The notes beneath the pieces were generated by a model. That model did no database searches and was not told the DNA's origin. It worked only from the letters and a program-made list of their open reading frames with translations. A program made the position numbers and the translations under genes. DNA of 7,454 bases, from positions 1 through 7,454 of the forward strand of contig JADFJB010000166.1 of NCBI GenBank assembly GCA_022566355.1. The letters are read 5' to 3'. How positions within the stretch are numbered: the stretch's first letter is position 1; every line of letters begins with the position of its first letter. Shown here piece by piece: positions 1,823-7,210 of this stretch. Source of the DNA: a candidate division KSB1 bacterium. Its GTDB lineage: Bacteria; Zhuqueibacterota; JdFR-76; DREG01.

Positions 1823-2737
1823 TTGAGTCTTATCTCAACAACTCAACACTATATTTTGAATAGATCGAATCCAATTATTGATTCCAACGATTTGGGGATC
1901 CATCAGACATCCATCCAAAAGGTGGATGGAAAAAAACTTACCCAGGAACAAGATGTTGTCGCTGTGGAAGAACCATTAGAAATACGTTTGGGGTTCGAAA
2001 AAAACGGGCAAAGAACTCACAAAAATATATCCGTAACCATGAGAACTCCCGGCGATGATTTTGAACTAACCGCGGGTTTTTTGTTTGCCGAGGGGATTAT
2101 AGAAAATGCAAACGACGTCGATCAAATCATTTTTTGCGGCCCTGTTGTATCCGGAGCCAAGTCTCGAAATGTTGTTCGGGTTGAATTAAAATCAACTATT
2201 CAATTTGATCTTAAAAAATTAGATCGTCATTTTTATACCACATCCAGTTGTGGGGTATGTGGGAAAACCTCAATCGATGCACTGAAAACGCAAAACAAAT
2301 ATTGTACTGAAAAGATACCGAAGTTAGGCGGCCATTTTGACAGGGAAATGATCCATCAATTGCCGCGAATCATGAGTCAATCTCAGGATGTTTTTGATCA
2401 AACAGGCGGTCTGCATGCGACTGCTTTGATAAACGTTAATGGGGAGGCTGTAATTCTGCGAGAAGATGTCGGCAGGCATAATGCCATGGACAAGGTTATC
2501 GGTGCTGCTTTATTTAGGGATTTTATCCCCCTCAGTAATCATTTGATATTTTTGAGCGGACGAGCCAGTTTTGAATTGATACAGAAAGCTTTGATGGCCG
2601 GCATACCCATAATAGCCGCTGTCGGAGCGCCGTCCAGCCTGGCTGTGGAATTAGCCAAAGAGTTTGATCTCACCCTCATAGCGTTTGTCCGAAATAATCG
2701 TTTCAACATTTACAATGGCGCTTGGCGTATTAAATAA
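1823..2737 (+). CDS. fdhD: FdhD, sulfurtransferase for formate dehydrogenase-type Mo/W enzymes
   Basis: FdhD takes sulfur from a cysteine desulfurase (IscS in E. coli) and passes it to the bis-MGD molybdenum or tungsten cofactor, a step needed for activity of formate dehydrogenase-type enzymes in the cytoplasm. The 304-residue product carries the family's landmarks in order. These are TPGDDFELTAGFL near residue 75, the sulfur-transfer cysteines in SSCGVCG (C143 and C146), TGGLHATAL (194-202), REDVGRHNAMDK (213-224), SGRASFE (245-251) and VGAPSSLA (267-274). The C-terminal strand ends ARNN-like (FVRNNRFNIY), as usual. Length is within or slightly above the family range, with about 40 extra residues at the N-terminus. 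It opens an operon: the next start lies 10 bases after its stop. The oxidoreductase encoded two genes downstream is the obvious client. The start codon is TTG, chosen from the RBS. Confidence 0.96.
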   Translation: MSLISTTQHYILNRSNPIIDSNDLGIHQTSIQKVDGKKLTQEQDVVAVEEPLEIRLGFEKNGQRTHKNISVTMRTPGDDFELTAGFLFAEGIIENANDVDQIIFCGPVVSGAKSRNVVRVELKSTIQFDLKKLDRHFYTTSSCGVCGKTSIDALKTQNKYCTEKIPKLGGHFDREMIHQLPRIMSQSQDVFDQTGGLHATALINVNGEAVILREDVGRHNAMDKVIGAALFRDFIPLSNHLIFLSGRASFELIQKALMAGIPIIAAVGAPSSLAVELAKEFDLTLIAFVRNNRFNIYNGAWRIK

Positions 2738-2740
2738 GGA
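2736..2740 (+). promoter_or_regulatory. RBS of the small middle gene, overlapping the fdhD stop
   Basis: AAGGA overlaps the fdhD stop codon and lies 7 bases before ATG 2748. It supports ATG 2748 over an upstream in-frame start at 2685 that would overlap fdhD by 53 bases. Confidence 0.6.
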
Positions 2741-2747
2741 CTTAAGA

Positions 2748-3119
2748 ATGAAATTAAGAATCAAAGGGAACTCTTTAAGACTTCGGATATCACAATCAGA
2801 AGTAAAACAATTAAAGGATAATTTGCAAATCACTGAAGAAATACAGTTTAGCAAAGATAGCGCTTTAAGGTACACTCTTCAAAATCAGCCTGGGCTTAAC
2901 ACCATAAAAGCTGATTATTCTGAAAATAGTTTGCTAATAAGTTTACCTGAAACATTGGCAAAAGATTGGCTAAATTCAGATCAGGTTGGCCTTGAAGGTA
3001 TACAAGAAAACAGTGAAAATAATTTTTTAAAGATTCTGGTAGAAAAAGATTTTTCTTGCTTAAGCCCTCGTGGTGATGAAGATGAATCTGATCTGCTGCC
3101 CAATCCAAAACAATCTTAA
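2748..3119 (+). CDS. Small conserved protein of unknown function, DUF7009-like, in the fdhD-oxidoreductase operon
   Basis: This is a 123-residue soluble protein with no signal peptide or membrane segment. It begins MKLRIKGNSLRLRISQSEV. It continues with alternating strands (a central RYTLQNQPGLNTIKADY, then SLLISLPETLAKDWL) and ends with LKILVEKDFSCLSPR, an acidic DEDESD stretch and a final PNPKQS. From memory, this N-terminus and the acidic end closing in PNP match a small family labelled DUF7009, often found beside fdhD and YdeP-type oxidoreductases in Bacteroidota. I could not search to confirm this. It has one cysteine, in the DFSCL motif. The gene starts 10 bases after fdhD and is followed after 53 bases by the oxidoreductase, with no terminator between, so it is probably co-transcribed. 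A role in maturing, or binding to, the Mo enzyme is a guess from position. An in-frame start at 2685 would add 21 residues but overlap fdhD. Confidence 0.8.
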   Translation: MKLRIKGNSLRLRISQSEVKQLKDNLQITEEIQFSKDSALRYTLQNQPGLNTIKADYSENSLLISLPETLAKDWLNSDQVGLEGIQENSENNFLKILVEKDFSCLSPRGDEDESDLLPNPKQS

Positions 3120-3172: not shown

Positions 3173-5479
3173 GTGAAAAATCAACCGGATATAAAAGCTC
3201 AACCCCCTGAAGAAAAACGAACCATTTCTACCGTTATTCCTCCAAAAATTGCCGGTGGAATTCCTGCTGTTTTATCAGCTATCAAGCATTCAATCAGAGA
3301 GATGGGAATTGTTCGCAGTATCAAAACACTAAGCCGGTTAAACCAACACGAGGGCTATGATTGTCCCAGTTGTGCCTGGCCGGATCCGGAAGAACGTGCT
3401 AAAGTTGAATTTTGTGAAAATGGTGTAAAGGCGGTCGCTGAAGAAGCCACAAAGAAAAAAGTTATCCCGGAATTTTTTGAGCGATGGTCCATTTCAAAAT
3501 TATCTCAACAGAGTGATTATTGGCTTGGAAAACAAGGAAGACTCACTCACCCTATGTGGTTAAAAACAGGCGAGACTTTTTATCAACCCATAGAATGGCA
3601 GGATGCGTTTGATCTCATCGCAGAAAAATTAAACAGCCTCAAGACTCCGGATGAAGCAGCTTTCTACACCTCCGGACGTACAAGCAATGAAGCCGCGTTT
3701 TTGTACCAGTTGTTTGTACGGTTGTTTGGTACAAACAACTTACCCGATTGTTCAAACATGTGTCATGAATCCAGTAGTGTAGCTTTGAAAGAAGTAATTG
3801 GCGTCGGGAAAGGAACGGTTAAATTGGAAGATTTTAATTATGCCGACACAATTTTTGTGATCGGACAAAACCCGGGAACCAACCACCCGCGAATGTTAAC
3901 CGCACTCCAGCAAGCGGCAAGAAATGGCTGCAAAATTGTTAGCATTAATCCTCTTCCGGAGGCCGGAATGATTCGCTTTAAGCATCCCCAGGAAATCAGA
4001 GGACTGGTTGGAGCCGGAACTGAGTTGGCAACACTTTTTCTGCAAGTGAAAATTAATGGGGATGTTGCCCTTTTAAAAGGCATCATAAAAGAAATGCTGA
4101 TTGCTGAAGAGAAAAACCCCGGTAGCGTTATCGATCGCAATTTTGTTGACAATTTTACAAGTGGTTTTTTTGAGTTTGATAAAGATATCACACAAACGAC
4201 ATGGGAGACGATAACAGAAGAAAGTGGCGTAAGTCGGGATCAGATATATGAAGCAGCCCAGGTTGCCATAAACTCCAAGCGGATGATCTGGTGCTGGGCA
4301 ATGGGCCTTACCCAGCATAAAAATGCAGTTGCCAATATTCAAGAAATTATTAATTTACTTTTACTTGGCGGACATTTCGGTCGTAAAGGAGCTGGTGTTT
4401 GTCCTGTACGGGGACACAGCAATGTTCAGGGAGATCGTACCATGGGCATCTGGGAAAGGCCAACTAAGGATTTCTTAGATAACCTGGAAAATGAATTTCA
4501 TTTTGAGCCTCCCAGGGAACCGGGTTTTAACACGGTGGAAGCAATTGAAGCCATGGCTGAAAACAAAGTCAAAGTATTTTTTGCTCTCGGCGGGAATTTT
4601 GTATCTGCAACACCGGATACGGAATTCACGGCTAATGCAATTCGCAAATGTGAGTTGACAGTCCAGGTGTCCACCAAACTCAACCGTGCCCACCTGGTTA
4701 CAGGAAAGCAGGCTTTGATACTTCCATGCCTGGCGCGTTCTGAAAAAGATGTGGTGGATGGTAAAGTCCAGTTCGTCAGTGTTGAAAATTCGATGGGAAT
4801 TGTTCATCGTTCTTCGGGTAATCTTGCGCCTACATCTAAATATCTCAAGAGTGAACCAAGCATTGTCGCTCAATTAGCAAAAGCAACATTTAAAAATCAC
4901 CCGGACAAAGTAAATAAAGTGAGATGGAAATACTTAAGTGCAGACTATAGTCGTATCCGTGATCTCATCGAAAGGGTAATTCCCGGATTTACGGATTATA
5001 ATCAGCGTGTCCGAAGACCAGGTGGTTTTTATCTGCCAAATCCAGTCCGGGATGAGAAGGTATTTAATACTTCAAACAAAAAAGCACAATTTACTATTCA
5101 TACCATAAAAAGAACCAATCTGCCGCAAGGTCACTACATCATGATGACAATTCGAAGCCATGATCAATATAACACCACAATTTATGGATTAGAAGATCGC
5201 TATCGCGGCATCGCAAATGGACGAAGAGTAATTCTAATGAACAAAGAAGATATGTGTGAGGCTTCTTTTAAAAAAGGACAGTATGTTGACATTACCAGCC
5301 ATTTTCAAGGCCAAAAAAGAATAGCAAAAAAATTTGTAGTTGTCCCATATGCCATCCCTAGAAAATGTGTTGCTACATATTTTCCCGAAGCTAATGTTCT
5401 GGTTCCGATTGGCAGTATCGCAGATAAGAGTCATACACCTGCTTCTAAATCGGTTCAAGTCAGCTTAGCGCCTGCTTAA
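3173..5479 (+). CDS. YdeP/FdhF-like molybdopterin oxidoreductase (formate dehydrogenase alpha-like)
   Basis: This is a 768-residue cytoplasmic enzyme of the MopB_YdeP group, close to E. coli YdeP (759 residues, linked to acid resistance). It binds a bis-MGD molybdenum or tungsten cofactor; the natural substrate of the group is not known and formate should not be assumed. The N-terminal part has GYDCPSCAWPDP and FCENG, giving C64, C67 and C81 as candidate iron-sulfur ligands. DCSNMCHESSS puts C197 (TGT codon, not selenocysteine) at the metal-ligand position. MGD-binding blocks follow, such as VIGQNPGTNHPR, GAGVCPVRGHSNVQGDRTMG and FALGGNFVSATPD. The C-terminal dinucleotide-binding domain runs from about residue 640 (MMTIRSHDQYNTTIYGLEDR). 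There is no signal peptide or twin-arginine motif. The start is GTG with no clear RBS; a TGA at 3164-3166 rules out an earlier start. It is the last gene of the fdhD operon and the likely client of FdhD. No electron-transfer subunit is nearby. Confidence 0.93.
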   Translation: MKNQPDIKAQPPEEKRTISTVIPPKIAGGIPAVLSAIKHSIREMGIVRSIKTLSRLNQHEGYDCPSCAWPDPEERAKVEFCENGVKAVAEEATKKKVIPEFFERWSISKLSQQSDYWLGKQGRLTHPMWLKTGETFYQPIEWQDAFDLIAEKLNSLKTPDEAAFYTSGRTSNEAAFLYQLFVRLFGTNNLPDCSNMCHESSSVALKEVIGVGKGTVKLEDFNYADTIFVIGQNPGTNHPRMLTALQQAARNGCKIVSINPLPEAGMIRFKHPQEIRGLVGAGTELATLFLQVKINGDVALLKGIIKEMLIAEEKNPGSVIDRNFVDNFTSGFFEFDKDITQTTWETITEESGVSRDQIYEAAQVAINSKRMIWCWAMGLTQHKNAVANIQEIINLLLLGGHFGRKGAGVCPVRGHSNVQGDRTMGIWERPTKDFLDNLENEFHFEPPREPGFNTVEAIEAMAENKVKVFFALGGNFVSATPDTEFTANAIRKCELTVQVSTKLNRAHLVTGKQALILPCLARSEKDVVDGKVQFVSVENSMGIVHRSSGNLAPTSKYLKSEPSIVAQLAKATFKNHPDKVNKVRWKYLSADYSRIRDLIERVIPGFTDYNQRVRRPGGFYLPNPVRDEKVFNTSNKKAQFTIHTIKRTNLPQGHYIMMTIRSHDQYNTTIYGLEDRYRGIANGRRVILMNKEDMCEASFKKGQYVDITSHFQGQKRIAKKFVVVPYAIPRKCVATYFPEANVLVPIGSIADKSHTPASKSVQVSLAPA

Positions 5480-6025: not shown

Positions 6026-7210
6026 ATGAACGGACAAACACTCAGATCTCTAAATTTTGAAGAAAAACCAGCGCCAAAGCGAATTATTGGTCATGTCAAA
6101 GGAACCTTACCTGGCCCTACTTTGATTTGCACTTCCGCTTTACATGGAAATGAACCTGCCGGATTCAAAGCCCTCGACAGGATATTTAATACCATTCGCA
6201 AAAACAAAATTACAATAAGAGGCGAGTTCCTCGGCCTGGTAGGCAATCTTTCAGCTCTAAAAGAGCAACGACGTTTCATCGATCGTGATCTCAATCGCGG
6301 ATGGTTTAAAGAACATATCGCCGCTCTCAAAGCAGGAAGTCAGTTGTTGGATAAAACTGAAGATCATGAGCGTCTGGAATTACTTGAAAATATTGAGAAA
6401 GTGGTACAGTCTGCAACAAGCGATATCATTTTTCTTGACCTTCATACGACATCCGGCAAGAGCGTTCCTTTTTTAGTAATTAGAGATATTCTACAAATTC
6501 GTAAATTCGTATTAGATTTTCCAATGCCAATCATTCTTGGCTTAGAAGAGCAGCTTAAAGGTACGCTCCAGGAGTACATGGGAAATTTAGTTCCCATTGG
6601 TTTTACGATCGAGGGCGGACAACATGATGATCCAAAATCGATCGATCAATTAGAAGCTGGGATTTGGCTAACTTTAGCCAATTGTGGGATCATTGAAAAC
6701 CAGGGTAAAAATGGATATGTCAAATACTCCAGGGATGCCTTGACTGCAGTTACTGAGGATTTACCACGTGTGTTTGAGGTTCGTTTCCGCCATTCAATGA
6801 AACCACAGGATCGGTTCCGGATGAAGCCTGGATATGAGAGTTTTCAAACAATAAAACAGGATGAAATCCTGGGCAGGGACGCAACTGGCGAAGTTAAAGC
6901 TGAAGAAAAGGGTAGAATACTGATGCCGCTATATCAAGCACAAGGTGAAGATGGCTATTTTATCATTCATGAGTTCAATTCAATTTGGCTTACTGTGTCA
7001 GAATATCTTCGTCGCTTGCAATTGGATTCGGTTTTGCACTTGTTACCTGGAGTGAAAGAATTTCGTGGGCAAAAAGATACCCTCATAATCAGTAAAATGA
7101 TTATTCGATTTTTTGCAATCGAAATATTTCATCTTCTGGGTTACCAAAAAATTAGAATGATGGGTAAAAATATTATCATGCGACGCCGATTAGACATTTT
7201 GCCCAAATAA
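6026..7210 (+). CDS. AspA/AstE-family zinc-dependent deacylase
   Basis: This is a 394-residue member of the succinylglutamate desuccinylase / aspartoacylase family (zinc carboxypeptidase M14 fold), enzymes that hydrolyse an N-acyl amino acid or related amide. The zinc ligands are visible: H40 and E43 in ALHGNEPAG, and H140 in DLHTTSG. RRFIDRDLNR supplies R83, N90 and R91, which line up with R63, N70 and R71 of human aspartoacylase. E196 in TIEGGQH is at the place of the catalytic glutamate. The catalytic part covers about residues 20-225. The rest is a beta-rich C-terminal domain, with the usual PGYESFQTIKQDEIL and GRILMPLYQAQGEDGYFII blocks, then about 60 residues ending in a basic tail. The substrate cannot be told from sequence. 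The ATG has no Shine-Dalgarno and follows AT-rich DNA. The gene stands alone, preceded by a palindromic repeat and followed by a terminator hairpin. Confidence 0.9.
   Translation: MNGQTLRSLNFEEKPAPKRIIGHVKGTLPGPTLICTSALHGNEPAGFKALDRIFNTIRKNKITIRGEFLGLVGNLSALKEQRRFIDRDLNRGWFKEHIAALKAGSQLLDKTEDHERLELLENIEKVVQSATSDIIFLDLHTTSGKSVPFLVIRDILQIRKFVLDFPMPIILGLEEQLKGTLQEYMGNLVPIGFTIEGGQHDDPKSIDQLEAGIWLTLANCGIIENQGKNGYVKYSRDALTAVTEDLPRVFEVRFRHSMKPQDRFRMKPGYESFQTIKQDEILGRDATGEVKAEEKGRILMPLYQAQGEDGYFIIHEFNSIWLTVSEYLRRLQLDSVLHLLPGVKEFRGQKDTLIISKMIIRFFAIEIFHLLGYQKIRMMGKNIIMRRRLDILPK

Follow-up and report, generated by a model that had tools for sequence, protein, structure and literature searches.

The whole stretch of DNA analysed here (7,454 nucleotides; the window) carries three genes in a compact set, all on the + strand, in which a small open reading frame (2748..3119, ATG start, 123 residues) lies between fdhD (1823..2737) and a gene for a 768-residue molybdopterin oxidoreductase of the FdhF/YdeP family (3173..5479). 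The fdhD product, the accessory sulfurtransferase of formate dehydrogenase, has a CGVC (CXXC) motif and was recognised in profile searches (NF001943, 307.8 bits against a cut-off of 269; TIGR00129, over its cut-off; PF02634, E 9e-65), as was the oxidoreductase (TIGR01701, 955 bits against a cut-off of 582; PF00384 and PF01568). Only 10 bp separate the end of fdhD at 2737 from the small frame, and 53 bp separate the latter from the YdeP-family frame. By reading of the sequence, a Shine-Dalgarno-like AAGGA (2736..2740, + strand), overlapping the stop codon of fdhD, lies 7 nt ahead of the ATG, which is consistent with a single operon. Thus, we confirmed the features on which the original prediction was built: a 123-residue protein encoded between FdhD and a YdeP-type Mo oxidoreductase, tight spacing to fdhD, and a single cysteine near the end of the protein (C104, codon 3057-3059). 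Farther downstream (6026-7210) the window encodes an AstE/AspA-type (succinylglutamate desuccinylase/aspartoacylase) protein that is unconnected to these findings.

Both neighbours have characterised relatives. FdhD transfers sulfur to bis-MGD and binds bis-MGD and GDP (PMC6239281). In Pseudomonas putida, fdhD shares a transcript with the YdeP homologue PP_0256, which has a part in formate oxidation (PMC10308882), and by analogy the enzyme in the window may be a formate dehydrogenase; the YdeP homologue Fdh4A of M. extorquens has been reported as coupled to Fdh4B (PMC10308882).

The small frame is more than a chance open reading frame, since PF22668 (DUF7009) covers its product from end to end (E 1.4e-36; 125.8 bits, cut-off 27; profile positions 1-119 of 119, protein residues 1-121 of 123), and it carries every invariant residue of that family, K2, R4, R11 and R13 together with an E-x-D-x-x-C motif. 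Judged by this profile match, it is a full-length member of a family that is already catalogued in Pfam with no function assigned and that is mentioned in none of the papers of the library searched. Pfam searches at E up to 0.001 gave no family except DUF7009, and thus no FdhD/NarQ (PF02634) match; the FdsD profile (PF11390), which does detect FdsD at another surveyed locus (L163), did not match either. There was no NCBIfam match, only weak matches in PHROGs, no relative in the PDB by sequence, and no phage record matching DUF7009. Long apparent DUF7009 fusions at two loci (L017, L048) were rejected as artefacts of GC-rich open frames. The source genome has one copy of the gene. A horizontal origin is plausible, since no other genome among the 53 of its phylum carries DUF7009, although FdhD is found in 12 of the 53.

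The invariant residues fall at the two ends of the domain. K2, R4, R11 and R13 lie in an N-terminal beta hairpin (2748..2789, +; model strands 2-5 and 9-14) and are invariant in 102 aligned members, while E99, D101 and C104, the last being the sole cysteine, belong to the motif E99-K-D101-F-S-C104 (3042..3059, +). Our GTDB scan for relatives (404 found, 80 kept) used the pattern [IV]EKDF[AKS]CL, and conservation among its members is biased for that reason; all seven residues also hold without exception in 34 members that profile or tblastn searches recovered independently of the motif, a set that excludes the most distant relatives (L155-L158, L133, L122, L123), some of which are missing the Cys motif. 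The acidic tail that follows (3060..3116, +; ending NPKQS, with NP at 119-120) is common in the family, absent in some members and less well conserved than C104. It had been proposed as a docking segment, and its acidic character and NP do hold, but two members encoded between fdhD and YdeP (L110, L111) stop right after the invariant cysteine, and therefore the tail cannot be essential in that setting. An AlphaFold2 model (mean pLDDT 93, pTM 0.83; 68-81 in the tail), computed from an alignment of 98 sequences with four plasmid-derived ones left out, predicts a beta-rich domain with two helices, in which the invariant basic residues sit on the first two strands and E99, D101 and C104 where the last strand ends. 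Searching the PDB with this model gave no clear fold match (Foldseek E no better than 0.02). The best was the C-terminal domain of SUFU (Suppressor of fused), with which we see no functional parallel and which at Z 5.7 (84 residues, 3.9 A; Z < 8) may share only a common arrangement.

We examined whether the gene keeps this company elsewhere in an unselected sample of 296 Bacteroidota genomes, where DUF7009 was present in 35, FdhD in 36, YdeP over the cut-off in 39 and MoaC in 178. DUF7009 co-occurred with FdhD (23/12/13/248; odds ratio 37, Fisher p 1e-16) and with YdeP (26/9/13/248; odds ratio 55, p 2.6e-20), both values being uncorrected for shared ancestry. Gene distance lends separate support to the association: fdhD lay within 2 kb of DUF7009 on the same strand in 17 of the 23 genomes with both (about 0.03 expected), upstream in 15 of these, and YdeP lay within 2 kb, on the same strand and always downstream, in 18 of 26. 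The co-directional trio fdhD-DUF7009-YdeP, whose conservation the original prediction had made the key to its proposals, is found in 16 of the 35 carriers, and also in Gemmatirosa (where a plasmid has the order mobA-fdhD-DUF7009-YdeP), Pyrinomonadaceae and a gammaproteobacterium. In some Bacteroidota the FdhD encoded directly upstream of DUF7009 and YdeP is of an unusual form, with a C-terminal GNAT acetyltransferase domain (PF13302; L140:4510-5928, also L142 and L150).

The association is not obligatory in either direction. DUF7009 is absent from 13 of the 36 FdhD genomes, from 13 of the 39 YdeP genomes, and from the E. coli and B. subtilis controls, which have FdhD, so it must be generally dispensable; gene absences in the survey are soft, since some of the genomes are draft MAGs. 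Conversely, FdhD is missing from 12 of the 35 carriers, six with YdeP and six without. Carriers of the family that lack both fdhD and YdeP-type genes, whose frequent occurrence had been named as evidence against a link, thus exist but are a minority (6/35). In four of these six the context is mobA: DUF7009 is directly upstream of mobA in G151 and G256, mobA is at the corresponding place in G105 (where the ORF picker missed the DUF7009 frame), and the same is inferred for G110, its locus unread, from a match score equal to that of G105. Another of the six, G131, has moaC and no Mo gene beside DUF7009; its sole PF01568 match, a 1006-residue frame, is probably a Mo-free ActB. At two Flagellimonas/Muricauda loci (L033 in G073, L086 in G102) DUF7009 and YdeP are paired with no detectable FdhD in the genome, as they are at L125 and L126; the L033 and L086 pairs raise the question of how the enzyme is sulfurated there.

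The partners extend to the wider molybdenum pathway. MoaC is present in all 35 Bacteroidota carriers (compared to 178/296 in the background), moaC in 42 of 42 carriers tested, and a PF01568 protein in 53 of 54. With neighbours labelled by blast against a few queries and key cases confirmed by profile, DUF7009 adjoins mobA at L119, L121 and L131 and moa/moe clusters at L004, L005, L129 and L146, and on a Persicobacter plasmid it lies within a moaA/moaE/moaD/mobA/moaC/moeA cluster. In Gammaproteobacteria it follows fdhF-fdhD-fdsD (G412, L163), a second copy adjoins napA, napB and napC (G088, L161), and a distant member lies in the order moaA-moeA-moaD-moaE-DUF7009-narK-like-narG (G544, L166). 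In G315 (L118), one of the six Bacteroidota carriers with neither FdhD nor YdeP, the neighbour is a NasA/formate-dehydrogenase-like enzyme. We also note that a distant member overlaps a ThiF-rhodanese (MoeB-like) gene (L167:1265-2760), and that G200 has a second copy (L135) beside a tetrapyrrole methylase gene and nirB, with a large molybdopterin enzyme some 9 kb away; the surroundings resemble a nitrate assimilation cluster.

At many gammaproteobacterial loci no Mo gene lies close by, and two clades of the tree (27 and 8 rows) account for most of these loci. We selected 50 genomes in which fdhD was not seen near the DUF7009 locus (L016-type adjacency aside) and found fdhD elsewhere in 44 of them, YdeP in only 11 and no YdeP in 39. 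Thus, FdhD and bis-MGD enzymes generally, rather than YdeP, are the steadier companions across phyla. Neighbourhood labels were not clustered on the DUF7009 tree beyond shuffles, and we therefore do not use them as evidence for separate origins. Several other neighbours were seen. A TIGR02453-family gene directly follows DUF7009 at L010, L014, L058 and about 22 other Woeseiaceae-type loci of the larger gammaproteobacterial clade, and divergent members at L122, L123 and L117 lie in menaquinone clusters beside menD (profile-confirmed in L122), with no Mo gene. In Rhodococcus, a plasmid encodes a small ThiS/MoaD-like protein (a Pfam match below the cut-off; L180:7317-7574) after fdhD and next to YdeP; neither it nor the small YdeP-adjoining protein of Rhizobium (no confident family) showed any sign of kinship with DUF7009.

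These partners suggest that DUF7009 assists the maturation of bis-MGD enzymes. Specifically, we think it probable (roughly 0.62) that this small protein works in the cytoplasm as an accessory factor for maturing bis-MGD (Mo/W) enzymes, probably around the step from MobA to FdhD or the apo-enzyme. Of the roles first proposed for the small protein, that of a maturation factor is well supported by the conserved trio, but the word "dedicated" does not, given the nap, nar, nas and moa neighbours and the 39 remote carriers without YdeP; DUF7009 is probably a general helper of Mo-enzyme maturation and not a part made for the enzyme in the window alone. Against this role in maturation we count the two gammaproteobacterial clades without Mo neighbours, the three men-cluster members, G131, and the dispensability of DUF7009 noted above.

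We considered that DUF7009 might work only with FdhD, for instance by relaying sulfur, or the cofactor once sulfurated, between FdhD and the enzyme that receives it. Such an adaptor would explain why fdhD is its closest and most regular neighbour, always co-directional in those 17 genomes, with a 4-bp overlap in a plasmid homologue from Granulicella, and why fdhD is kept in 44 of the 50 remote carriers. In its strict form, however, this proposal is weakened by the 12 Bacteroidota carriers with no detectable FdhD, by G073 and G102, which also have none, and by the members adjoining mobA, nap or nar, and we regard it as unlikely; a protein that commonly works with FdhD is the most likely arrangement given these gene neighbourhoods. 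That DUF7009 is a small subunit of the YdeP-type enzyme, or a chaperone reserved for it, is disfavoured and to us quite improbable. The regular placement of YdeP downstream in 18 of 26 genomes and the four DUF7009-YdeP pairs that persist without FdhD speak for it, but the family occurs without YdeP in 39 of 50 remote carriers, in places adjoins other Mo enzymes or only cofactor genes, and is found in 4 plasmid records compared to 408 with a YdeP homologue (both are present in Gemmatirosa).

A regulator, or a metal or oxygen sensor, for the expression of Mo enzymes would account for the loci apart from Mo genes and for the variable partners, and association alone does not separate regulation from maturation. 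Yet DUF7009 matched no DNA-binding or molybdate-binding family in Pfam or NCBIfam, a TOBE_3 match was weak and confined to one distant member (E 0.013), and the spacing within operons is tight; this explanation is very improbable.

Comparison with known systems sets the family apart. DUF7009 shares its genomic setting with the FdhD/FdsC sulfurtransferase-chaperones, but it is unrelated in sequence, only 123 residues long, and has one cysteine in EKDFxC rather than a CXXC motif. FdsD (PF11390), the delta subunit of NAD-dependent formate dehydrogenase, is likewise small and encoded beside fdhD and fdhF, but has no sequence match to DUF7009, and L163 has both side by side as separate genes. The NarJ/TorD/DmsD redox enzyme maturation proteins resemble the proposed DUF7009 in being accessory to bis-MGD enzymes. 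They are all-helical, whereas the DUF7009 model is mainly beta and its partners are varied rather than enzyme-specific; with no NarJ/TorD-type match in Pfam or NCBIfam, we rejected that identity.

If DUF7009 is a maturation helper, it would act at or near the handover of the guanine dinucleotide cofactor made by MobA to FdhD or the apo-enzyme, and for the window this would mean assisting FdhD in the maturation of the YdeP-type enzyme whose gene comes next. The basic hairpin (K2, R4, R11, R13) may make contact with phosphate groups, either of the cofactor or of a partner, and E99, D101 and C104 may hold a metal-sulfur centre or relay sulfur. More speculatively, DUF7009 could be an unrecognised bis-MGD handler with a fold of its own, carrying cofactor or sulfur on the E-D-C site and hairpin from MobA to FdhD and apo-enzymes, a step that the current scheme would omit because E. 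coli has no DUF7009; we offer this tentatively and consider it rather unlikely.

Membership in the family, association with the pathway across phyla, and the invariant residues place a family with no assigned function in a pathway, with a small set of partners and seven residues as targets for mutation. If the proposed role is correct, an additional protein takes part in maturing formate dehydrogenases, nitrate reductases and YdeP-type enzymes in many bacteria that lie outside the enterobacterial model, and this could matter when Mo/W formate dehydrogenases are to be made in active form in a foreign host.
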